A stretch of DNA of 47,843 bases from a virus, in IMG/VR virus record IMGVR_UViG_3300025896_001214, positions 1 to 47,843 of that record; one strand, 5' to 3'. Position 1 is the first letter of the stretch, and every line of letters starts with the position of its first letter. The notes beneath the pieces were generated by a model. The model worked only from the letters and a program-made list of their open reading frames with translations, was not told the DNA's origin and did no database searches. The position numbers and the translations under genes were made by a program. This document shows, in pieces, positions 23,884 through 47,843 of the stretch.

Positions 23884-26238
23884 TTACTGCGCCAATGAGT
23901 TGGCAAATAGCCAAAATTTACTTTGATTCTTATCCTGTGTAAAGGTATCAAACTTAGTTTTATTACGGTTAGCAACTTCCATCAGCTTATGGTACAGGTC
24001 AAGCCTGCTGTCCTCGTCCAATGAATCGATTCGTTTTAGCTCTGCAATGATCTTATCCATACGAGGGACCGGTTCATACTCTGTATCATATGACTCATCA
24101 ATGACATCGCTAAATGTTTCAAATCCCATTCGTCGAAGCACTTGCAGAGATTCTGCTGGTCCCACAATGATAAACGGATGTCCGTGTGCAATGGCCTTAA
24201 AAGTCTTTTCACTAATAAACACATCACCTTCTTCATAAGTTGTTTCAGTGATAACACTTAGCAAGGATTGTTCAAAGTGATTGCCTACTGTGGGACCATT
24301 CTGAGTAACATCATACTCATCAATTGTCAATGACTCATCTAACAAGGGAATAATACGTTCTTTAACGGCAGGCGTCATGTAAAGTGAACCCTGCACAACT
24401 TCTACTGCTGTTTTATCCACCCCCGGATATAATTCGCCACTGTGTACAAAACTAATCATATTGCCGTCAACTAAATCATTCAGTAACATTTCCCCCACCA
24501 AGTGGCAACGGTGACCTTTAATAACACGATTATAGCTTAGGAAGTTTGCAGTTTTATTTTCGTATTCGTGCGTGGCAGTTGTACTCCTCTCCACCCACTT
24601 ATCAATGGATACAAAGTTTAGCAGATTAATTTCACTTTCACTTACGCCAGCTAATGCCAATGCTTGCCCTGCACTTTGCAATTCATTTGCATAGTACCAC
24701 TGGTCGCTGGTCAATTCGGGCCAGAACTTCTTTAGTTGGTCTCTCCACATAAATGCATGAGCAATCATGCCTTCGTTTGGCGTAATAAACACAATACGAT
24801 CATCTGACTTAAACAGCCCAATACGAGCCCGTGTCGCTGCAATGTATTCGGCTGCGGCCAACGGCTTGTTAACTGCTTCAATTGGGGCCAATGCAAAGTA
24901 TGTCATTGGTTCATTACGTTTGGATGCAAACTTAAATTGCGAATACAATTCAACAAAGATATCACAACTGTTAACAGGATTTAAAATGCGTCCATTGATA
25001 GTAGGCAGGCTAAATTTGGGATTACCATAATGGACAACACGGCATCCTGGGAACTCTTTAATAGTGCGCCATGGGTCAACAATGATACTGCCTGGAACAA
25101 TGTCATAATAAAATTCATCAGGTTTAATTTCAACACCTGTTCCAGCGTATGTAATTGCCGGATTGTGCGCCATTAATACAACTGCTGGCACAGTTGGTCC
25201 TTCAACGTCGTCAGTCAGAGGATCTACATAAATCAATTCAACACCAGCATGTTCGATAAAGTGGCCCACCAATAGGCTATAACTGCCAATGGTGTAGGGA
25301 ACATAAGGCTTGTATGCCTTTCCGTGAATCACCACTGGCATTTCATGCTCTTGTGCAAGTCGTACCAGCTTTGAGGCCATTGCGTGTGCTTGACTATCAC
25401 GAGCACTCATAATAGCATGGAACATATCGTAACCCAAATCCAACTTGCCACTTAGCCAACGTAGTGCAATGTTGTCACGTGGATGGCAAGCGCCTGCATC
25501 ACCTAGGCCTGCTGTCAAATAACGTGGTCCTGTGATACGCTGTGTTGCAGCCTTCAGTGCATCTGTTACTACATCTACATTGATGTTGCCGTTCTTTTCT
25601 GCAACGTCTTGGATCATATTGACAAGACCAATTTTAGCACTAATAAATGTATTGTAGAAAATCTTAATGGCTTCTGCTTCATCCCATGTGCCCACGTTAA
25701 CACGTGGTTCATTCTTCATCAGTGGCTTATAAAATTCAATTAGTTCTTGTGCATCACCAGTGATGGATCCATCTTCAGTTCCAATGATAAGACATTCTGG
25801 ATTGACCATATCCCACTTGACACTGCCCATGGCAATAAGATATGGATTGTAAATGAAACGTGCATTGGTCAAATAGCCAATTAAACTGTCTCTAACTGTG
25901 CCAGGCAATACTGTAGAGATTAACACTACCAATTGATCCTGAGTCACGTGTGGATTAATTTGCTCAAAGACTCGAATAACAGGAGTATAGTCAAAGTCAC
26001 ATGGCGTCATATTAGAGATGGGAGTTTCTCCACCATACTGCGGATTGTGTGGTGTTGGTACTGCAACAAAAATAATGTCAGCACCCTTTACCGCTTCTTT
26101 GATTGAGCTTTTAATAGTGACTGTTTGTGTCGGGTCTACTGTATTAATATCAAACCCGCAAACATCGTAATGTTCGGCCATTACTTCTGCGCAGGGCAAA
26201 CCCAGCTTGCCCAATCCAATCATTGCTACACGTTTCAT
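23884..26238 (-). CDS. UDP-sugar dehydrogenase fused to SEKT-type glycosyltransferase-like domain
   Basis: 784 aa, much longer than the ~400-450 aa of a nucleotide-sugar dehydrogenase. Residues 1-~415: [18 protein letters not shown] (Rossmann G-x-G-x2-G), [19 protein letters not shown] and [11 protein letters not shown] with catalytic Cys251, so the oxidising site is intact. Residues ~430-784: [21 protein letters not shown], then [21 protein letters not shown] and [17 protein letters not shown], homologous to the 22764 and 27685 proteins. A dehydrogenase plus putative transferase in one chain could couple UDP-uronate formation to transfer. Confidence 0.82.
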
Positions 26239-30620: not shown

Positions 30621-32105
30621 TTACTGAGACAACAATTTTGCAACGTATGTGTCAATGAATTGCTGGCCTTTTGCCAGTTGCTCTAATTGGCTCCATTTTG
30701 AGTTATTTTCCTTAAGAAATGCGTCCCGTTCATAACCCATTTGTCTTAACTGCATAATTTTCCAGCTGCCGTGCCGTGCATTTGATGGATCTGTCACAGG
30801 ATTTAATTCAGCTTTGACAAAGTCTGTAGCAGTAATATCTGTCCAGTGTTCGTTTTTCCAATTGAATCTACCTGACAGTGTGTAACCATAACTTTCAGCA
30901 TTGCGTTCAAATTCGCTGGCATTTTTAATATTACCAGACCCCAAGCCCAAGGGATGCCAAGATATGTTATACAAGTCGTTTTCATTAAACCATTTGGCAG
31001 TGTTTAAAAGACTATCAGCAGTGTCACCGGGTAAGCCCACAATGAAGCTAAGTGTTTGGAACACTTGTTTTTTCCATACATTGTGGTATAAATGCGGAAT
31101 GTATTCGCTGGCTTCTTTACCACTCCAGCCTTTTCCAATCACTTGAGATGCACGTTCGCCTAGGGTTTCAATTCCATGATAACATGAAAACAATCCAGTC
31201 TCTGCCAGCATATGCGGCACATCAGGGAATCTATGTAACAAGTCCGCTCTAAGGTACGATGTCCAATTTATTTTAAATGGCAAGGATGTTACCATCTGAT
31301 GCCAGGCCTTCATTTTATATTCAGTGTCATTAAACGTATCGCAAATTACAAAATAGTTAGTGGTACCCCACTTTTCATAATTGTGTACAATTTCCTCGCG
31401 TACCAATTCAAAGTCTCGCAAGTAATCAAGTTTGCCGCGGCCCAACAGCAAGTGATTACAAAACTTACATTTAAAAATACAACCCCTGCTGATCTCAATT
31501 GGCAGTGTTTCATTGGGCATAACAGCATCATGCTCGGTGAATTTAAATGCATCAGTCTCAATGTTATATCGTACTGCTGACGGTGCCGCATATTGTTTGA
31601 TTGTTTTCTTAAAGCGGTTTACATTACTAGTGGGAGCAATGGACCAGACTGGCTCCGGACCCTTTCCTCTTAGATGATCCAGCACATCAACAAATGTATC
31701 TTCACCGTACTGTTGTATCACTGCGTATGGGTTCTTAACAAAATCTTTACACACTGTGGTGGTGACCAAGTATGTGCCGTACCCTCCAAAAATCAATTTG
31801 ACATTTGGGAACTGTTCAGAAATTTCGTTTAATACTGTAATAAGGTGTGGCGGTAATGACTGTTGTGGCCTATCGGGATCGCGCATGAATGTAGTGCTGA
31901 CGCCAATTGCTAATGTGGTATTTGAAATGTATTTTAATATACACTGTCTTAGTTGTTGCTCAGTCTGAAACATCACATGATCTATTACTTGTGTGTCGTA
32001 ACCAGCGGCGCGAGCATAATGTGCAATTTTGTATGCGCCCAGGGTTCTATAGGGTGAGATTTGATTTAAATCTCGAGGCCCGCTGTTTAAAAGTATAACA
32101 TCCAT
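30621..32105 (-). CDS. B12-binding-domain radical SAM protein
   Basis: 494 aa. The N-terminal ~140 residues (LNQISPYRTLGAYKIAHYARAAGYDTQVIDHVMF, KLIFGGYGTYL) look like a cobalamin-binding Rossmann domain as in B12-dependent radical SAM enzymes. The core motif is EISRGCIFKCKFCNH (C-x3-C-x2-C), with later LSFIVGLPGDT typical of the class. The canonical DxHxxG cobalamin ligand is not evident, so B12 use is uncertain. The start at 32105 lies 5 nt after a TATAAGTA box; an ATG two codons upstream lies inside that box. Confidence 0.86.
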   Translation of the reverse strand: MDVILLNSGPRDLNQISPYRTLGAYKIAHYARAAGYDTQVIDHVMFQTEQQLRQCILKYISNTTLAIGVSTTFMRDPDRPQQSLPPHLITVLNEISEQFPNVKLIFGGYGTYLVTTTVCKDFVKNPYAVIQQYGEDTFVDVLDHLRGKGPEPVWSIAPTSNVNRFKKTIKQYAAPSAVRYNIETDAFKFTEHDAVMPNETLPIEISRGCIFKCKFCNHLLLGRGKLDYLRDFELVREEIVHNYEKWGTTNYFVICDTFNDTEYKMKAWHQMVTSLPFKINWTSYLRADLLHRFPDVPHMLAETGLFSCYHGIETLGERASQVIGKGWSGKEASEYIPHLYHNVWKKQVFQTLSFIVGLPGDTADSLLNTAKWFNENDLYNISWHPLGLGSGNIKNASEFERNAESYGYTLSGRFNWKNEHWTDITATDFVKAELNPVTDPSNARHGSWKIMQLRQMGYERDAFLKENNSKWSQLEQLAKGQQFIDTYVAKLLSQ

Positions 32106-32110
32106 AGACA

Positions 32111-32118
32111 TACTTATA
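32111..32118 (-). promoter_or_regulatory. T4-late-like promoter box (TATAAGTA)
   Basis: Minus-strand TATAAGTA, 7/8 match to the T4 late consensus TATAAATA, five nt before the ATG at 32105. Confidence 0.55.
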
Positions 32119-38511: not shown

Positions 38512-38812
38512 CAAATACGGTTTCCCTATTGTGGCCGCTGCTGGCATGGGATATTTGATATTCTATGTATGGCAATGGGCAACACAAGAAGTTAAGCCAG
38601 TATTGAGTGCGGCCAGTAATACTCTTATTGCCTTGATTGATCGTGTACGCATGTTAGATAACGATTTAATCAGACTAAATCAAAAGGTTGATGTGGTACT
38701 ACACTTGCGTGGTAAAATCATTGACGGTGAACGTGTAGTAGAACAGCAAAAAGTAGATCGCGAAGCAGATGAAAAGTTTCGAGACGCTGCCAATATTGAT
38801 TCTAAGAAATAA
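38489..38812 (+). CDS. Small single-span membrane protein, paralog of 37791
   Basis: 107 aa with one transmembrane helix (GFPIVAAAGMGYLIFYVW) then a helical tail with heptads and a charged end (RVVEQQKVDREADEKFRDAANIDSKK). It overlaps the previous gene by 23 nt and its end overlaps the convergent 38802 gene by 11 nt. A holin- or lysis-regulator-like role is possible but unproven. Confidence 0.66.
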   Translation: MDLANLINKYGFPIVAAAGMGYLIFYVWQWATQEVKPVLSAASNTLIALIDRVRMLDNDLIRLNQKVDVVLHLRGKIIDGERVVEQQKVDREADEKFRDAANIDSKK

Positions 38813-39185
38813 CTAGCCCGTCTTGGGCAAAGCCTTCAACTACTGAATTATAGTAATGCTCGCTGGGCTTTACACCAGTCAGCTTTGTTCTATAATGCGG
38901 TGTCATGTAATATACCCAGGCCTGCTTTCGTTGACGATCGTGCTCTACAACTGTTGTAATACGATCATAAAATGTAGGATAGCCTTCGCGATAGTCTAGG
39001 TCCTGCAACTCAATCTCGTCAATTTCCCATAGAATGCCAATGGCAGCATTGCCCCGAGATTCAAACACATTGGCAAACTGTAACATTTCCCATTTGTAAT
39101 CTAATAGGTTTGCCGGACCTAGTCGTATACTGGACTTGTTCATGGCATTGTTGTTGGTATTCATACCGTATGCAAAATATAACAT
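38802..39185 (-). CDS. Gamma-glutamylcyclotransferase-like protein
   Basis: 127 aa from MLYFAYGMNTN (AGGAG 4-5 nt upstream; TAATG overlap with the preceding stop). The fold signature YFAYG-x-N is followed by RLGPANLLDYKW, AIGILWEIDEIELQDLDYREGYPTFYDR, where the Glu of REGYP fits the conserved catalytic acid, and KQAWVYYM. Members cyclise gamma-glutamyl peptides or amines or reverse such modifications. It may relate to gamma-glutamyl/amido chemistry of the amidoligase-like gene at 45313, which is inference. Confidence 0.83.
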   Translation of the reverse strand: MLYFAYGMNTNNNAMNKSSIRLGPANLLDYKWEMLQFANVFESRGNAAIGILWEIDEIELQDLDYREGYPTFYDRITTVVEHDRQRKQAWVYYMTPHYRTKLTGVKPSEHYYNSVVEGFAQDGLVIS

Positions 39186-39892
39186 TAAACTCCTAATTTG
39201 TAAATATTGTTTTCGATGTGTTGCCACACTCCTGCTGGATTGCCATCTGCAAATACCAACTGACAACTGATAGTGATCCTAAAGCCCGAGCCCTGTATAA
39301 CTGTATGAGGCTGATTGGTTCTAAGAATAGCACTGGGCACATTGGATTCAACTTCAAACACAGGCCCTGGCAGATCATGCCACTGTATTAGGCCCGCTTG
39401 TAAATCTTCTACACAATCAGCCATCACGTTGATTCGAGCCTGTGAGTATTCAGTGGCTGGATACTCGCGCATGGTCACAGGCAGGTCTTTGCTATCCCAC
39501 CAACACAATTTGCCCGGGGCTGTGGCTAATTCATAATAGCTTAGTCGTGCTTCTAATAACGTAGGCTTACGATTGTAATAAACACCATCAGCATGAATAG
39601 CGTACGATGTTGAATCTGCATCACCTGCAAATAATGTAACTGCTCTTGTACGCAAGCCCAGGGTTTCAACCAGTTGATCTGTTTGTTGAATAGTACGGGG
39701 GAATAACTCTGTCACAGTTCCCACATTCACAAGACTATGTCCAGTGCCTGCATACTTCTCATACAGGCCGGGCAATTGATTCTTTATAAATGATTCTTTT
39801 TCTTCGGGATCAATTGCTAGTAGCAATGGATAAAAATAGTTGTCGTTGCGTGTAGGGGTTTGTGCAAAGTTGTAATTTAATTGTTGTGTCAT
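39185..39892 (-). CDS. 2OG-Fe(II) oxygenase-like protein A
   Basis: 235 aa. YAIHADGVYYN (His-x-Asp) and NQPHTVIQGSGFRITISC (distal His, then Arg nine residues later) are the order and approximate spacing of Fe(II)/2-oxoglutarate oxygenase ligands. LEARLSYYEL sits between, on a conserved strand. The N-terminus (NYFYPLLLAIDPEEKESFI) matches the neighbouring protein. Substrate unknown; hydroxylation of protein, nucleic acid or a small molecule is possible. Tail-to-head ATGA overlap with 39889. Confidence 0.6.
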   Translation of the reverse strand: MTQQLNYNFAQTPTRNDNYFYPLLLAIDPEEKESFIKNQLPGLYEKYAGTGHSLVNVGTVTELFPRTIQQTDQLVETLGLRTRAVTLFAGDADSTSYAIHADGVYYNRKPTLLEARLSYYELATAPGKLCWWDSKDLPVTMREYPATEYSQARINVMADCVEDLQAGLIQWHDLPGPVFEVESNVPSAILRTNQPHTVIQGSGFRITISCQLVFADGNPAGVWQHIENNIYKLGV

Positions 39893-40590
39893 TGTAGTTG
39901 ATTAATATTGTTTTGAGCATGTTCCCATACTCCGATTAATTCGCCAGACTGAAATGCAATACTTAAACTTAATGTGACTCGAACACCATTGGATTGAACA
40001 ATGTGATGCGGCAGATTGGTGCGGACAAATGCACTTGGACTTACTATAGTAGTGCTAAAATTTGGTATTGGAATTTGGTCCCAGCTTAGTGTACCGTTTC
40101 TTAAATCATGTCTAAACGGTGGCAAGCAAATAACAAACGGATGTGCCCCACTTAGATTTTCAATTAACCGAGGTATTTTCCACCAAGGTAGATTGCCATC
40201 ATCAATGGGAATCCTATTAGGTAAATGATCCCACCATTCAATTGTATTTTGACCCAACGACATTTCATACAGGTTAATTCTTGCTTCTAGCATTCCAACA
40301 TTCCCTGCTTGGTCTACCATGCCATCACAATGTATATTTTTACCAACAATGTTTCCACTACTCATAAACATTGTTGGCTTGTATACTACAAGACCAATTG
40401 GTGCTAATACTGCATTAATTGCGTCGATTGTAGAATGGAACTGATGTTCCATTCTAGAACCAACATGGGTCAAATCTGAATCAGACTGTGCAAATTGCTC
40501 AATTAAATCGGGCAATAGAGTACTTGTAAAGCGCAATCGTTCAACAGGATCTATTGTTAAATTTAAAGGAAAGAAATAGTTGGATTGCAT
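39889..40590 (-). CDS. 2OG-Fe(II) oxygenase-like protein B, paralog of A
   Basis: 233 aa from MQSNYFFPLNLTIDPVERLRF. The HxD is in NIHCDGMVDQAGNVGMLEARINLYEM, and the distal part is LPHHIVQSNGVRVTLSLSI (His ... Arg). Alignment with protein A over the whole length is visible (IH[AC]DG...LEAR[LI].[YL]YE[LM]; R.T[NL][QL]PH.[VI]Q..G.R.T.S). The two arose by tandem duplication. The start at 40590 is 7 nt after the previous stop; a TAAATA box overlaps the intergenic region. Confidence 0.58.
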   Translation of the reverse strand: MQSNYFFPLNLTIDPVERLRFTSTLLPDLIEQFAQSDSDLTHVGSRMEHQFHSTIDAINAVLAPIGLVVYKPTMFMSSGNIVGKNIHCDGMVDQAGNVGMLEARINLYEMSLGQNTIEWWDHLPNRIPIDDGNLPWWKIPRLIENLSGAHPFVICLPPFRHDLRNGTLSWDQIPIPNFSTTIVSPSAFVRTNLPHHIVQSNGVRVTLSLSIAFQSGELIGVWEHAQNNINQLQ

Positions 40591-40597
40591 CTGGTAT

Positions 40598-42634
40598 TTA
40601 TTTACTTGTAGCTCTAAATGTGCCGTCCCAATTAGCTGGGAGTCCTTCATTCATACGCTCTAGCATATTTACATAATATTGATGCAGTGAATTATCTAGC
40701 TTGACTAACTTTTCACATGCTTTGATTGCACGAGCCCAATCACCGCGATAGTATGCAGTTAGATAGATATCGTGTAGTGTTATATCTGTTGTTCCTAGTG
40801 TAAAGATTCGAACTCCAATGTTCTTACCTTTGACAGCAATGCAATCAAGTTCTACTACAGAGTACTCGTCTTTAACTAATTCTGCTGTACGTTGTCCTAG
40901 AACAATCTTGACACCATACGGCTTAGACTGGCCCTCGAGTCTGCTTGCCAAATTAACACCGTCGCCAAGGCAAGTGTAATCAAACCGCTGATCACTACCC
41001 ATATTACCCACAACAACGGCGGCAGTATTAATGCCAAGACCCATACCAAAAGCTGGTACACCTTCTGCTGTAACTTCTTTATTAAACGCATCTAAACTCT
41101 CCATCATCTCTAATGCTGTCTTAACTGCCATGTGTGCGTGACGTGCTTCGTCAACTGGAGCATTCCAGAATGCCATCTGGGCATCGCCAATATACTTGTC
41201 TAATGTTCCGTTATTGTCAATAATTTTCTTGGTCATTGCAGTCATGTAACGGTTCATGATCTTTGTAAGTCCTTGTACGTCTTTACCATAGTGTTCAGAG
41301 ATTGTAGTAAAGCCACGAACGTCAGTGAACATAATTGATAGTTCACGTTCGTCGCCGCCCAACTGCAACATCTCAGGATTCTTTTGTAGCTTGGCAACCA
41401 AGGCAGGACTCAGGTAAGTGCCAAACTGTTTCTTGATCTGTTGCTTTTGTTTGAACTCAATTACAAAACGTGCAAACAGTGCATGTCCATACAGCATAAC
41501 ACTGGCAATTGTTAGATAATAAATGTCCCAGAGCTGACTATAATGATTCCATGCATAGAAGCTTCCGCCCGCTACTGATCCAATGGTAACAACCAGTGCC
41601 GCTCCCACTGCCCAAAAAGGTAATCGGGGCATAACGAAAATTAGTACTAACGCTATCAGTATAATTGCTAATAACTCCGCAGTGTTTGCAAACGCTGGCC
41701 TAACGGGACTGCTGCCATCTAGTAGTGTTTGCACAGTTTGAGCTTGAATGTCATGTGCCCATCGTTCTCCTTGTGGAGTGGCAATAATTGTGCCCAGTCC
41801 TTCAGCGCCTAGCCCCAGTACAACAATTTTATTCTCTAAGTTGATGTTGTTCTTGGCCAGTTCTGACAACTCATAACGTTCAAATTTCTTGTTCCAACGT
41901 AGCCAAACCCTAGCATGTTGATCTGTAGTAATAATAGGCTGGCCTGCAATGCGAACCTTTTCAATTCCTGCGGAACTTATTTTGACTTGATAGCTTTGTT
42001 CTCCTGTAGCAACACGAAGTGCTTCAATTGGCAAGCTGGGATAAATTTGGTCGCCTACAGCAACTATTAATGGCATGCGACGAACAACACCGTCTACTTC
42101 AGGTGCCACCACACTGGTGCCAACGCCAGCTGCACTGTCGGCCAAGATCTTATAAGGGCTTAATGCTCCGGGCCAAGCAAATACCCAATCCTGGGCCAAG
42201 CCACCAATCACAGCTACTCCTCGACGAACAGCATCGGGACGTTTGTTTTGTGTAGTAGGTGCTTGTGCAATAACACTGTTGGTCAGTTTTAGGGCAGCGG
42301 CTAGTTCTTTGTCTTGCCCCATTCTATCTGCTTCGCTCATGATGACAGGAACAACAATTACAGATGCCCCAAGAGCCTGTATACGATCAATAGCTTGTGC
42401 TAGATTCCTGCGAGGCCACGGCCATTGACCCAGACGTTCTATACTGGCTTCTCCAATATCAATGATGACAACATTGTCTGACTCGACAGGAGTGTCGATA
42501 CTCAGCAGAGTATCAAAGCCTTTTAATTGTATGCTTTCAACAGGCGCAGGGTTAGAGATTTTTAATGCCACTAGTACAACTGCTGTAACAGTTACCCATG
42601 CAATACTCCATGGTCCGGGAATAAAGTTCTTCAT
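40598..42634 (-). CDS. CHASE2-domain class III adenylate/guanylate cyclase
   Basis: 678 aa. The N-terminal helix (WSIAWVTVTAVVLVALKI) is followed by a ~290-aa CHASE2 extracellular sensor (FDTLLSIDTPVESDNVVIIDIGEASIERLGQWPWPR; YELSELAKNNINLENKIVVLG), then three transmembrane helices and the cyclase domain. Cyclase residues: SIMFTDVRGFTTISE and GTLDKYIGDAQMAFWNAP (two metal Asp), and RFDYTCLGDGVNLASRLEG with the transition-state Asn and Arg, so it appears catalytically complete. It would be an inner-membrane enzyme making cAMP or a related cyclic nucleotide. A TTGACT-N17-TAAATT promoter places the start site at or next to the ATG. Confidence 0.93.
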   Translation of the reverse strand: MKNFIPGPWSIAWVTVTAVVLVALKISNPAPVESIQLKGFDTLLSIDTPVESDNVVIIDIGEASIERLGQWPWPRRNLAQAIDRIQALGASVIVVPVIMSEADRMGQDKELAAALKLTNSVIAQAPTTQNKRPDAVRRGVAVIGGLAQDWVFAWPGALSPYKILADSAAGVGTSVVAPEVDGVVRRMPLIVAVGDQIYPSLPIEALRVATGEQSYQVKISSAGIEKVRIAGQPIITTDQHARVWLRWNKKFERYELSELAKNNINLENKIVVLGLGAEGLGTIIATPQGERWAHDIQAQTVQTLLDGSSPVRPAFANTAELLAIILIALVLIFVMPRLPFWAVGAALVVTIGSVAGGSFYAWNHYSQLWDIYYLTIASVMLYGHALFARFVIEFKQKQQIKKQFGTYLSPALVAKLQKNPEMLQLGGDERELSIMFTDVRGFTTISEHYGKDVQGLTKIMNRYMTAMTKKIIDNNGTLDKYIGDAQMAFWNAPVDEARHAHMAVKTALEMMESLDAFNKEVTAEGVPAFGMGLGINTAAVVVGNMGSDQRFDYTCLGDGVNLASRLEGQSKPYGVKIVLGQRTAELVKDEYSVVELDCIAVKGKNIGVRIFTLGTTDITLHDIYLTAYYRGDWARAIKACEKLVKLDNSLHQYYVNMLERMNEGLPANWDGTFRATSK

Positions 42635-42639
42635 ACTAT

Positions 42640-42673
42640 AATTTAGCATATTTTTCAACAAAAGTCAAGTCAA
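42640..42673 (-). promoter_or_regulatory. Promoter of the cyclase gene
   Basis: Minus strand TTGACT (42663-42668) and TAAATT (42640-42645) are spaced 17 nt. An overlapping second TTGACT (42668-42673) pairs with TATGCT (42646-42651) at 16 nt. The first predicts transcription starting about at the ATG (leaderless). Confidence 0.6.
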
Positions 42674-42835: not shown

Positions 42836-43312
42836 GAAAAATTTGATTCTAAGATGAATCAAATAGTGATAGTTTTGCTAGATTGGGAGGCCATACGACA
42901 CCCTGTAAAGGATGCCGGATGAGATGTTTGCTTAGACGATCAGCCACACTGAGACAATAGGTATTTGGGTTTCCGCATCTCTGGGCTCTGTAACTTACCC
43001 TACCTATTACGATTTTTAAAACAACTTCGGTGTCATATGTTGTTATGGATGCATTGGAACTAAGTCGGCTTACACCGCACTCAACCTGTATACTAGTATT
43101 CAAACGTAAAACCCTGAGGGGCAACATTTTAAGGCATCCGTACTGAGACGGGTAGTGAATACGAGTCCGTGGTGTACTCACAGAATTGGGCATCGGCACA
43201 CACTTAGATGCTTACCCAGCGGAATATTATCTGGCCCGCTAACCTTACGTTACACTTGATTATTGTGCAGTACTTACGACTGCTGTAGCAGGACCAATCG
43301 CCAGAGATAGCG
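42836..43312 (-). ncRNA. Putative large structured non-coding RNA (~480 nt)
   Basis: No credible protein is encoded here. Reading the minus strand, several stems are visible: GTGAGTAC with GTATTCAC (8 bp; 43174-43181 and 43155-43162); AATAGGTA with TACCTATT (8 bp; 42956-42963 and 43001-43008) extended inward by GGGT/ACCC; an 8-bp GU-containing stem at 42896-42903/42910-42917; and small hairpins near 43272-43290. The 3' end is the terminator at 42837-42864. The segment 43201-43220 contains AAGCATCTAAG inside a CGCT...AGTG stem, like helix 97 of bacterial 23S rRNA. The 5' end and class are unknown; large ornate phage RNAs such as GOLLD or ROOL are possible relatives. Confidence 0.6.
42837..42864 (-). 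terminator. Intrinsic terminator of the structured RNA
   Basis: Perfect 9-bp arms ATTTGATTC (42841-42849) and GAATCAAAT (42856-42864), 6-nt loop. On the minus strand the stem runs into TTTTT (42837-42841). No CDS precedes it within ~450 nt, so it most simply ends a non-coding transcript. Confidence 0.85.
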
Positions 43313-44647
43313 TTATTGGGGTGACTGAGTCTGTTGCGCTCGATACCATTCCCATGCTTGATTGTTTATTTCTCTGCCAACCGTTCTTCTATAGTAGCCT
43401 ATTAGGCCCACTAGCTTTTGATTTTCATCCCATACGGCTGAAGCATCTTTACCAAGCCATGGTTTAAAATCAGCGCCCTTGGCCCATTCTTTACAATGCT
43501 GTCTAAGTTTACTGCCATCTGGATCCCATGCTTGCCAAGCCTTACTGCTGGCCAACTCTACATCTAAGTTATCAAACAGGGTTTTTTCAATCAAGGCAGG
43601 TGTAATTACTCCCGACGATTTCTTATTACTAATAGTCTTGAGTTGTTTGATAATTCTTGGATCTAATACAACACCTTGTGTGGGTTCGTTGTGGGCAATC
43701 CATCCATGACCAGGATCAAATACACTAGTAAAGCCCAAGTCGCGCAGGACTTTATTCCAACGAACAACATTAGTTTCGTCGCTTTTTCCCAGTCTGCTTA
43801 AACAATCGTAAATGAAATAATATGGCGTACCATCGTATTCGGGTTCGTCTATGGCCTGTTGAATTACATCTTCAGGACAATATTGAAGCAATGCTTGTTT
43901 TAGTTTGTTTTCGTCTACAGATGTTTCTTTTGTCATTTCACCTGAACGGTCATATTGAAACAACTGAATATAAGGATAGTCACTGCCCCAGGGTAATTTT
44001 TTACCACGGCGTGCTAGGTCTACAGCATAGTCTAGGGGATAGAAGTAAATGCCTTTAGGTGTATCTTCACTGATGCCCACTTGCGGGTTGATACCCAACT
44101 TGGGTTCACTGGTCATACTGATGGCCCAGTTTTGTGGATCTGCAATGGTGTCAGCAACAGCCACCAATTCTTTCATGCCTGATTCATACCTGACACTCTG
44201 TTCTGGATTGGTTCGTGCTTCATCAACTGTTTCCCAAGCCATACTTTTACTGCCCTTAACTGTAGGCTTAAAGCCTTGTCCTCGATAGAACTTTGTTAGT
44301 TTAGCCTGACTTACTTGTCCCTTATCCCACGGGAATAGTGTAAGCGCAATGCCATCTGCACGTGCCATAGACTGTAGTTCCTGCATAGCTTTGCTGCCTA
44401 CACCTTGACGTAGAGGATATGCTTGGAACCATTTAACTTCAACTGCTCCACGCTTGCTAAAACTTGGCACTAACTCAAACATGGCAAACTGCTGCTCATC
44501 ACCCGAGCCCCAGACCATAACGTGATTGTTTTGCATTGTATGCGGGTACTTTGCGTAGACTCGTTCAATCCATGCTTTAGCTGCTTCGTTATTGCCTAGC
44601 CTGATTCTAACTGGCTCGTCGTTTTCAATTAAGTCTCTTATTAGCAT
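43313..44647 (-). CDS. GNAT acetyltransferase-domain protein, candidate packaged effector
   Basis: 444 aa from MLIRDLIENDEPVRIRLGNNE (4 nt after the previous stop; a longer frame upstream has no better start). The leader resembles MKLRELI/MKIYDIL of neighbours and L-I-E-N fits a hydrophobic-x-Glu cleavage site. Residues ~60-135 form a GNAT domain: WFQAYPLRQGVGSKAMQEL (acetyl-CoA pyrophosphate loop R-Q-G-V-G-S) and KLTKFYRGQGFKP. Residues ~165-320 (MTSEPKLGINPQVG, TPKGIYFYPLDYAVDLARRGKKLPWGSDYPYIQLF) are a module also seen in phage proteins of unknown function. The C-terminal third is unassigned. Confidence 0.78.
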   Translation of the reverse strand: MLIRDLIENDEPVRIRLGNNEAAKAWIERVYAKYPHTMQNNHVMVWGSGDEQQFAMFELVPSFSKRGAVEVKWFQAYPLRQGVGSKAMQELQSMARADGIALTLFPWDKGQVSQAKLTKFYRGQGFKPTVKGSKSMAWETVDEARTNPEQSVRYESGMKELVAVADTIADPQNWAISMTSEPKLGINPQVGISEDTPKGIYFYPLDYAVDLARRGKKLPWGSDYPYIQLFQYDRSGEMTKETSVDENKLKQALLQYCPEDVIQQAIDEPEYDGTPYYFIYDCLSRLGKSDETNVVRWNKVLRDLGFTSVFDPGHGWIAHNEPTQGVVLDPRIIKQLKTISNKKSSGVITPALIEKTLFDNLDVELASSKAWQAWDPDGSKLRQHCKEWAKGADFKPWLGKDASAVWDENQKLVGLIGYYRRTVGREINNQAWEWYRAQQTQSPQ

Positions 44648-44651
44648 TTTC

Positions 44652-45311
44652 TTATCCTGTAAACGGATCTGTAATAACTGGAGTATCACCGCGTCGCATT
44701 ACATTTTCAGTGTGTAAATCCCAGCCTAGCCCACGACTTCTTCCAAATTGGAATAGCTGTTGCATTACTACAAATAAACTTGCGTACATTTTTTCTACTG
44801 CTGGATCACTTAGCCCCTTTGCAATGTCGCTTTCTCGCCCAGGTCCAGAAAAGTGTTCCCAGAACTCGGGCTTGATTAGTTGCGCCTTAGCATCACGCCA
44901 TTTCATAAAAGGTATAATGGACAAGTCACTAAGTCCCCACACCATCTGTTCCATAAAACTGTTATTGACAATGGGCTCAAGATTCTCCATTGATATTTGT
45001 CTATAGTCTACTCCATTGAGTGTAAACACAGTATGATCAAAACCGCCAATACTGATAAATCTTGGCAGGAACGGTGACTTCTTATGTGCTGTATAAAACT
45101 CATAAAACGCTAAAAACGATGCGTCTCCTTCAGCCCGAGACAACTCTTGCGGCATGATGATTTTAATAACACTGCCTTCTTCTTTGGTCCATACAGTTGC
45201 GTCATAGCCGCTGCCAACACTCTTGTATCCAAGTTGCTTTAGCTTTGCTATAATTTGTTTACTATTGGTAGAGTCTTGATCGTACTCGTACAGGATGTCG
45301 TATATTTTCAT
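44652..45311 (-). CDS. Protein-kinase-like protein, candidate packaged effector
   Basis: 219 aa. Glycine loop GSGYDATV (~33-40), ATP Lys in SVIKII (K50), hinge-like SMENLEPI (~107), catalytic-loop equivalent WDLHTENVM (D198, N203) and a TDPF segment (D215) replacing DFG. Sequence order and spacing fit a minimal, C-terminally truncated eukaryotic-like or aminoglycoside-kinase-like fold; the protein ends four residues past DPF. The N-terminus MKIYDILYEYDQ is a candidate capsid-targeting leader. The phosphoryl acceptor is unknown. Start one base after the previous stop. Confidence 0.75.
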   Translation of the reverse strand: MKIYDILYEYDQDSTNSKQIIAKLKQLGYKSVGSGYDATVWTKEEGSVIKIIMPQELSRAEGDASFLAFYEFYTAHKKSPFLPRFISIGGFDHTVFTLNGVDYRQISMENLEPIVNNSFMEQMVWGLSDLSIIPFMKWRDAKAQLIKPEFWEHFSGPGRESDIAKGLSDPAVEKMYASLFVVMQQLFQFGRSRGLGWDLHTENVMRRGDTPVITDPFTG

Positions 45312-45312
45312 A

Positions 45313-47331
45313 TTATCTCATCTCTGGCACTACGCTCACTTCTGTTCCATGACCATATCCGTTTTGTGTTAACCATTGTATAGCAACTCTATTGGCATCT
45401 GCTTGACTGTTGCCAATGCCATTGAATCTATGTAGTCCTGCGCCGCTTCCATCTTTGATGATCCACCAGCCAGTCCATTCATTACCAGCGGCCCGTGCAG
45501 TATTGGCGGCGCCAGGTTCTTGTCCCGGCATTATCTTACCATACTGGTGTTGGTCCCCGCCATTGTTTTGAGCTTTCCAACGTTGTAAGTATTCAAATGC
45601 ATCGCTGCTGTTGGCCGCATAGTATTTCTCAATAATTTGCCCAGTGTCACGATCAGAAATGTACCAATTTGGTTCTTGTCCAGCAGGTTTAAGTTCGTTG
45701 TAGGTATCTTTTAAACCTTGACGCTCTAACTGTGCTTGACGAACAAAGCTCTTTAGTGCAGCCTTGGGCATTTGACCTGCGGCATACTGTGCAAAGTACG
45801 CCATTGTGTTGTTGTGACTTTTAGGTTGTAAAATTGCATACAACTTTTTCAAGTACTCTTGTTTGTACTTTTCTGGATCTACTGCGGCATCTAGTGCTAC
45901 AACGAAACGCAATAGTGTATTGGTAATTGTTCCGGGATCAGCTGCATACTCGCCTAACCAATCGCCGCCAGGACTACGAAACTCAACGTAGCCATCCTTG
46001 GTGTTGATACTGGTGAACTTGGCAGTGACGCCAGAGTGAATAGACTTACTGGCCAATCCATCTAATCCAGTTTTCATTTTTTGTAATAACGCACCTGCGT
46101 CTTCGGGACGTTGTCCAACGCGAGTTTTAATTTCTTCCATTGCACTTTTGCAATAGGTATTACCAGCACGGCCAAACTTTTCCAAGATATACTTGTCGCC
46201 CATTAGTAATGCTAGTTTAACATAATCTAACTTGCCAATATCTCCTGCCCAACCTTCAACACTGACGTTGATGTGCAGGCCAGTTGATGAATTTGTATAA
46301 CATCCATACACGCCGGCCCATTTGGCAACTTTATCTAAATCAGAAAGTAGTTCGCCAATAGGCAATGCCGGACTTACAAACTCCAAGCCACGATCGGCAC
46401 TGTCGTCTGCATCCAAGCTGCCGTCTGGCTCCACAACATAGTGCGAGTTACTGGCATCGGGCCTTGCTACACTACCAGAGTGATACGCACCGCTGGCCTG
46501 TACTGTACGTCCAATGGCCTTGGCAAAGTCTTCGGCTACTTCTTCTGCACTAACGCCATCACCATCACCACCTGATGAAGTCCAATACGGCCAGGTAATG
46601 CTAAACTCACTTGAAATATCACTCATGTAACGATAGCGAGCATCTTCTAAGAAGTCGCCCTCGTCTGCATTACCTTGATTTTCTTCACGATATTCATCTA
46701 GCGCAGAATCGTGCATGCTGCCATGATCATTCCATTCGGTACTTACTAATTCTTCAAGCTCTTCGTCTGCGGCACGATCAGCTTCTATATAGTTGTTGTA
46801 ATTTTCATCTGCTTCGCGAGCAGCCTTTAATTCACTGGATTTGTTGTACGTTGGAGCCTTATTATAAGCATCGAATGCCGCATCAATGCCTTCTTCATCT
46901 AGACCCATTGCTTCTAAATGTTCGCGTACCTTGTCTTCTTGAATCCACTCGTTGTTGTTGATCCAAGTGCGAAGATAATCTTCCCCGTCTGACGCCCAGT
47001 CATTGTCAATCTTTTCGCTTTCCCACTCAAAATAAGCTTCTTGTAATTTTTCAATCAAGCGTCGGACTTCATCACGGCTGTTGTAGTCGCCATCATTGAA
47101 GAATTCTTCAATGTCACTAAAGCTACGAGTGCGCTGATCTTCATCGTAATCAGGCTCTTGGTCGCCATCATCCCCGGTGCTGGCCCCTGGTACAATCATT
47201 TCAAATTCCATGCCAGCCCTGGCATTGATTTTACTAGCCAATTGCTTTAGGCTTGACGGGCTCATGTTGATTTCGTCTAGCTGTTGTTCAACTAAGACAG
47301 GTGGTTGGGGATTGACATCACGTAATTTCAT
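45313..47331 (-). CDS. Amidoligase-like protein with leader and WYI repeats
   Basis: 672 aa. The start MKLRDVNPQPPVLVEQQLDEI resembles the packaged-protein leaders. AGMEFEMIVPG (~40), YVVEPDGSLDADDSADRGLEFVSPALPIGE (~295-325), CYTNSSTGLHINVSVEG and SGVTAKFTSINTKDGYVEFRSPGGDW match the ordered metal/substrate motifs of the amidoligase (COOH-NH2 ligase, glutamine-synthetase-like) family. A long acidic helical insert occupies ~60-250. The C-terminus has two related WYI/WWI modules (PNWYISDRDTGQIIEKY; TGWWIIKDGSGAGLHRF). It might ligate amino groups to glutamyl carboxylates. A TAAATA box is 7 nt upstream. Confidence 0.78.
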   Translation of the reverse strand: MKLRDVNPQPPVLVEQQLDEINMSPSSLKQLASKINARAGMEFEMIVPGASTGDDGDQEPDYDEDQRTRSFSDIEEFFNDGDYNSRDEVRRLIEKLQEAYFEWESEKIDNDWASDGEDYLRTWINNNEWIQEDKVREHLEAMGLDEEGIDAAFDAYNKAPTYNKSSELKAAREADENYNNYIEADRAADEELEELVSTEWNDHGSMHDSALDEYREENQGNADEGDFLEDARYRYMSDISSEFSITWPYWTSSGGDGDGVSAEEVAEDFAKAIGRTVQASGAYHSGSVARPDASNSHYVVEPDGSLDADDSADRGLEFVSPALPIGELLSDLDKVAKWAGVYGCYTNSSTGLHINVSVEGWAGDIGKLDYVKLALLMGDKYILEKFGRAGNTYCKSAMEEIKTRVGQRPEDAGALLQKMKTGLDGLASKSIHSGVTAKFTSINTKDGYVEFRSPGGDWLGEYAADPGTITNTLLRFVVALDAAVDPEKYKQEYLKKLYAILQPKSHNNTMAYFAQYAAGQMPKAALKSFVRQAQLERQGLKDTYNELKPAGQEPNWYISDRDTGQIIEKYYAANSSDAFEYLQRWKAQNNGGDQHQYGKIMPGQEPGAANTARAAGNEWTGWWIIKDGSGAGLHRFNGIGNSQADANRVAIQWLTQNGYGHGTEVSVVPEMR

Positions 47332-47346: not shown

Positions 47347-47843
47347 TTACTGTCCTTGCTGTACAGTAATCTTGGCGCAACCACCAGCTGTGGCACAGTT
47401 AAATTGTATACTATAGAAGTGCTGAACAGCACCAGATTGAGTTAAACTTAAATCAGTTGGGTTTCCAGTTAGGCCCACACTTGCCACATGGCTTGCAGAT
47501 CCTTGCTGTAATATATCTACATTCTTGTTGCCGCCGCTTAATGTTACTTCTGCATAATGGCTACCACTGTCCTTCTGTGTCAATAATAAACTATTGTTGT
47601 TGTCATTTATTTTTACAAACGCACCCTTTAGCCCGGTGCCCTGTTGCACGATTGACACACTGTTGTTATTGCCTACTATTCCAAGATCTGTGTAGTTTGA
47701 TGCGGTGGTATCTCCTGATTGCAAAATGCTAACTGTATTGTTATTGCCAGTGCTGGCATACTCAGCATGGTTATCTTTGGTCCCAGTTTGCTCAATTGTG
47801 GTAATATTGTTTGATCCAATTTGTTCAATGTATATCTGTGCAT
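47347..47843 (-). CDS. Curlin-like repeat protein, partial (5' end outside)
   Basis: At least 164 residues in frame to the right edge; the N-terminus is missing. The visible chain is made of repeating units with the CsgA/curlin spacing: IYIEQIGSNN..TTIEQTGTKDNHAEYASTG; NNNTVSILQSGD; NNNSVSIVQQGTG.KGAFVKI; NNNSLLLTQKDSGSHYAEVTL; NKNVDILQQGSASHVASVGL; LSLTQSGAVQHFYSI. The alternating N-x-V-x-I-x-Q-x-G with Asn ladders predicts a beta-solenoid fibre. It ends CATAGGCAKITVQQGQ. Likely an extracellular or virion fibre; whether it is a fibre segment or an amyloid-like adhesin is unknown. Confidence 0.78.
   Translation of the reverse strand, partial: AQIYIEQIGSNNITTIEQTGTKDNHAEYASTGNNNTVSILQSGDTTASNYTDLGIVGNNNSVSIVQQGTGLKGAFVKINDNNNSLLLTQKDSGSHYAEVTLSGGNKNVDILQQGSASHVASVGLTGNPTDLSLTQSGAVQHFYSIQFNCATAGGCAKITVQQGQ

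Follow-up and report, generated by a model that had tools for sequence, protein, structure and literature searches.

Why should a phage encode a membrane-bound sensor cyclase, and what might such an enzyme sense and signal? We addressed this question for a gene in the IMG/VR virus record IMGVR_UViG_3300025896_001214, of which the whole stretch of DNA that was analysed (47,843 nucleotides) is referred to as the window. The predicted protein (Table 1) has 678 residues and begins MKNFIPGPW when read from the ATG at 42634; the open frame is longer (40598-42661, 687 residues, TTG start), and the region of the ATG start is kept in close relatives. Pfam searches identified a CHASE2 domain (PF05226, 4e-44) and a class III cyclase domain (Guanylate_cyc, PF00211, 4e-20), and hydropathy analysis predicted one N-terminal membrane segment and two or three more between these two domains, which would place CHASE2 N-terminal to the catalytic domain and between membrane segments. 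A first-pass annotation, made from the letters alone, had described the product as a transmembrane CHASE2 cyclase of class III, encoded by a phage and with its catalytic residues intact, and this description held, as Pfam and the PHROG family phrog_35576 both matched, hydropathy segments were found before and after CHASE2, and all six residues were present. The sequence shows the domain architecture, and the membrane topology is a prediction from it.

The six active-site residues comprise the metal-binding Asp pair D438 and D484, which is invariant across the aligned phage sets, the base residues K480 and T554, which are of the adenylate type as in the alignment with CyaB, and the transition-state residues N561 and R565. 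The nearest solved structures are those of adenylate cyclases, namely the chimera 6fht, CyaB (3r5g) and CyaC (1wc1). Because this adenylate-type site is intact, the earlier proposal that the enzyme could raise cAMP in the infected cell is plausible, with cAMP as the presumed product. Pairwise dN/dS values against nine relatives were about 0.08-0.13, showing strong purifying selection and therefore that the cyclase protein has been maintained.

Table 1. Features of the cyclase gene and its upstream neighbours in the window (positions are those of the window)
Feature	Position	Strand	Evidence and remarks
CHASE2-class III adenylate cyclase, coding sequence	40598..42634	-	Open reading frame; Pfam; phrog_35576 over full length
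CHASE2 extracytoplasmic sensor domain (PF05226)	41639..42580	-	Pfam; residues 28-341, counted from the TTG start
Class III nucleotidyl cyclase domain (PF00211), with D438, K480, D484, T554, N561 and R565	40820..41344	-	Pfam and alignment
Conserved C-terminal tail behind the cyclase domain	40601..40819	-	Sequence comparison; stand-alone paralogue before CsgF in some relatives
Probable structured RNA before the cyclase (conserved non-coding block)	42860..43290	-	Conservation and covariation; lies beside the module but is not a constant component of it
458-aa gene between curlin and cyclase	43313..44689	-	No family assigned by PHROG or Pfam
219-aa gene, same insert	44652..45311	-	Weak match to phage protein-kinase family phrog_15752 (9e-7)
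672-aa gene, same insert	45313..47331	-	Weak scaffold match below cut-off; no confident family
Second curlin-repeat gene, cut by the window end	47347..47843	-	Pfam Curlin_rpt (4.4e-11); synteny with L002-L006, in which CsgF, CsgG, the first curlin gene and FecR lie beyond

CHASE2 cyclases are common in bacteria, and the best plasmid match to the present one is 38% identical, observations that would fit a mis-assembled piece of bacterial DNA, the outcome that the first-pass annotation had regarded as fatal to its reading. We consider the probability of this to be negligible. The window comes from a virus record and carries phage DNA polymerase and endolysin genes, and genes 86% identical to the cyclase are found on independent viral contigs, where they have phage curli neighbours. 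The isolates HTVC008M (infecting Pelagibacter) and Melnitz (infecting OM43) encode homologues with 40-42% identity that are annotated as cyclases, and in two trees all sampled phage cyclases grouped together, apart from the bacterial copies (SH-aLRT 100). In addition, phrog_35576 matched the protein over its full length (1.5e-233), such that neither chance nor mis-assembly accounts for the frame. Mis-assembly was thus ruled out by the isolates and the tree, and the cyclase is a true phage gene. Nor is it unusual in a phage, as had been supposed, since relatives were detected on at least 599 viral contig stretches.

A jumbo-phage genome is the most likely source of the window: its DNA polymerase shares 88% identity with the counterpart on a 285 kb contig and 57-59% with the polymerases of other large contigs (up to 372 kb in length) on which the curli module described below is also found. 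The module itself also occurs on jumbo-phage contigs of 280-372 kb. A scan of genome contigs returned only six loci, three of which (L084, L085 and L088, contigs in bacterial MAGs) carry the module. Because the module is present and their cyclases group with the phage copies in the trees, these three probably represent phage contigs binned into bacterial genomes and not bacterial relatives.

We found that the main context of the gene, missing from the first-pass annotation, is a curli (type VIII secretion, T8SS)-FecR module that ends in the cyclase. Genes for CsgF, CsgG, a curlin-repeat protein and FecR were located upstream of the cyclase and on the same strand in all 48 viral loci for which 4 kb or more of upstream sequence was available, and the close relatives L002-L006 show this arrangement; the window retains only the second curlin gene of the module, which its end interrupts. 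In Melnitz and HTVC008M the gene order is CsgF, CsgG, curlin repeat, FecR, curlin repeat and, last, cyclase, the FecR and second curlin genes of HTVC008M being annotated as hypothetical and identified here by sequence match. Curlin-repeat genes flank FecR on both sides in most loci. When sampling was started from CsgG, FecR was present in every one of the 54 loci for which the downstream sequence extended to 5 kb or more, and the cyclase lay within 9 kb downstream in 46; five further loci had a cyclase on the contig (nearby on the other strand in L221, elsewhere in four), and the other three, which are fragments, were without a full copy. Protein distances of the cyclase correlated with those of CsgG (r = 0.75) and FecR (r = 0.70), with none of 999 permutations giving values as high. 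Both the linkage to CsgF, CsgG, curlin and FecR genes and a correlated history of the module are apparent from these comparisons. Since the gene is found in hundreds of related phages, usually as the final member of a curli cassette, it is probably the sensor of that cassette rather than a stand-alone anti-defence gene.

In the window, the curlin gene and the cyclase are separated by about 4 kb of other genes and the probable structured RNA, an arrangement shared with some close relatives and not with others, and therefore co-transcription is not certain. The non-coding block had a mean column identity of 87% among five sequences (the window, L002, L004, L005 and L006), with seven predicted pairs changed on both sides, and an exact 29-base piece of it was present in six viral contigs. 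With no match in Rfam, the block is likely to be an undescribed structured RNA. It was absent before the cyclase in L003, L007, L008 and L011, and is therefore a conserved element without being a constant companion of the gene. On the other side of the cyclase, genes 39185-39892 and 39889-40650, both on the minus strand, had no match in Pfam or PHROG and resemble paralogues of each other by eye. The window also contains genes of metabolic type, all on the minus strand, for a gamma-glutamyl cyclotransferase (38802-39266), a GTP cyclohydrolase (2111-2833), a phosphoribosyl transferase (1151-1750), a UDP-glucose dehydrogenase (23884-26238) and a radical SAM protein (30621-32111). Elsewhere in the family, a free-standing paralogue of the C-terminal tail of the cyclase, of about 110 residues, is encoded directly before CsgF in L165, L167, L168, L170, L178, L189 and L219, and one is also present on the contig of L195; several of these phages encode a full cyclase too.

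Among the bacterial relatives of the cyclase, which are from alphaproteobacteria, 19 of 74 had a FecR gene within 5 kb, compared with about 0.7 expected, an approximate figure that assumes a genome of 3.2 Mb. Genes for FecR and for CHASE2 cyclases neighbour each other in alphaproteobacterial genomes far more often than chance would predict, in agreement with published clusters, in which CHASE2 adenylate cyclases cluster with FecR in Campylobacterota (PMC9239204) and a biofilm operon contains FecR and a CHASE2 kinase (PMC5192318). The three best plasmid relatives were all in a cluster with a FecR gene, and in two of them, L134 and L135, the CHASE2 cyclase and FecR genes adjoin genes for NHLP export transporters and for a protein that binds cyclic nucleotides, a layout suggesting cyclase-controlled secretion in bacteria. 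Both FecR and cyclase were absent from the three alphaproteobacterial curli loci examined. In view of the bacterial pairing and of these loci, a small sample, a sensor pair from bacteria may have been combined with a secretion system, either in the phages or in their source.

We therefore propose, with a probability of about 60%, that the cyclase serves the phage curli module as a sensor that makes cAMP. The CHASE2 domain would lie on the outer side of the inner membrane and would sense the state of the envelope, for example the export or build-up of phage curlin-repeat protein via CsgG/CsgF, probably in concert with the FecR-domain protein of the module, its likely periplasmic partner. The membrane helices would relay the signal to the cytoplasmic cyclase domain, which is expected to act as a dimer in converting ATP to cAMP. 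No match to the cyclic-nucleotide-binding domain (PF00027) was found in any phage record searched, and a cAMP signal would therefore need the host, or a receptor of another kind, as its reader. We infer FecR or the state of the fibre as input and a host receptor as output, through which cAMP might alter host physiology or envelope gene expression during fibre production. What might have been taken for a curiosity, or guessed to be an anti-defence gene, would then be the conserved sensory end of an amyloid-secretion cassette in diverged phages, including jumbo phages. If the cyclase is active, infected cells would contain a second-messenger circuit made by the phage and coupled to the envelope, a prediction open to direct test in the isolates HTVC008M and Melnitz.

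Other roles may be considered for the same genes. The intact adenylate-type active site would also fit a general reprogramming of the host, in which cAMP steers carbon or transcription control via a host CRP-type regulator, and in which the cyclase adjoins curli genes for reasons of common ancestry or of a shared promoter, not of function; the reader of the cAMP signal would again be that of the host, no phage receptor having been found, and in some phages the cyclase is 10-15 kb from CsgG. However, the curli linkage persists across very diverged phages, and bacterial CHASE2 cyclases have FecR as a companion even where curli genes are lacking; we therefore favour a functional unit and regard general reprogramming as unlikely. 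A gated outer-membrane pore for lysis timing or uptake, with the cyclase reporting the envelope state to time the event, is highly unlikely; although a CsgGF pore has been proposed for Melnitz (PMC9004378) and CHASE2 is an extracytoplasmic sensor domain, the fact that most loci have curlin-repeat genes to either side of FecR favours fibre secretion, and a separate endolysin gene is present in the window.

A further suggestion of the first-pass annotation was that the cyclase could disturb or imitate the signalling of defence systems, such as Pycsar or other cyclic-nucleotide immunity, and PADLOC profiles for PycC did match the catalytic domain (5e-25). This match lacks specificity, as the same best-matching model gives stronger scores for ordinary CHASE2 cyclases from bacteria (2e-29 to 4e-31), and with this control the Pycsar identity was rejected. 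Clade D PycC also uses a Lys base residue (PMC11224242); the window cyclase has K480/T554, of the adenylate type. PADLOC detected nothing in the four window neighbours of the cyclase, the constant neighbours are curli and FecR genes and not defence genes, and the absence of a cyclic-nucleotide-binding gene from the phage records searched likewise argues against a defence link, which we consider extremely improbable. The role as sensor arm of the curli module remains the reading that we prefer.

Two types of active site were found among the phage cyclases. About half of those sampled are of a D/S type, with the paired replacement of T554 by Asp and of N561 by Ser, as for example in L082, L146, L164 and Melnitz, whereas the window cyclase is of the T/N type. 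Among the 63 rows classed as phage or phage-like, 32 showed the change, and a single clade accounted for 31 of these. One pattern of our first viral search (DAQMAFWN) lies in the catalytic domain and biased that set to the T/N type; the set started from CsgG was free of this bias, and it was there that the D/S type came to light. The catalytic half of the D/S type had dN/dS values of about 0.02-0.11, indicating purifying selection and hence that these cyclases are not decaying. As the transition-state Asn has been lost in about half of the sampled phage relatives, catalysis may differ across the family, and the intact catalytic residues are a property of the window cyclase and not of every phage relative. 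It is conceivable, though distinctly unlikely, that a FecR-CHASE2 cyclase unit senses amyloid secretion in both cases, the T/N type making cAMP and the D/S type having an altered rate or product, which would provide two cyclic-nucleotide signals for the same curli module. That about half of the sampled cyclases share this double substitution poses a clear question of enzymology.

Modules of this kind are already known, since phage curli-FecR-cyclase modules were published in 2022, when Wittmers et al. (PMC9599517) described a pelagiphage T8SS module with FecR and adenylate cyclase and reported a histidine kinase upstream of it; Zaragoza-Solas et al. 2020 (PMC7029224) and the Melnitz paper (PMC9004378) described the curli genes, with the cyclase absent from the main text. 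New here are the jumbo-phage module, the bacterial FecR-CHASE2 link, the T/N and D/S types, the absence of a cyclic-nucleotide-binding protein from the phage records searched and the tail paralogue. Compared with the pelagiphage T8SS module, the genes and their order, as read from the relatives, are the same, but the window is a probable fragment of a jumbo-phage lineage and has extra genes and a probable RNA between curlin and cyclase. Members of phrog_35576 share the CHASE2, membrane and cyclase parts over the full length, and the family, annotated as of unknown function, can be named from these domains. Pycsar PycC has in common with the window cyclase a class III cyclase domain, but differs in that the latter has curli/FecR neighbours, a non-specific profile match and no cyclic-nucleotide-binding effector found. 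The bacterial FecR and CHASE2 clusters, in Campylobacterota (PMC9239204) and alphaproteobacteria, likewise have a CHASE2 adenylate cyclase near a FecR-domain gene, although those examined adjoin other genes, such as NHLP export transporters, in place of curli, and the phage cyclases form a clade of their own. By sequence, the catalytic domain of the window cyclase belongs to the same family as those of CyaC (1wc1) and CyaB (3r5g), with the Lys/Thr base residues and the Asn/Arg pair in common, whereas the CHASE2 input domain and the conserved C-terminal tail set the enzyme apart from both.
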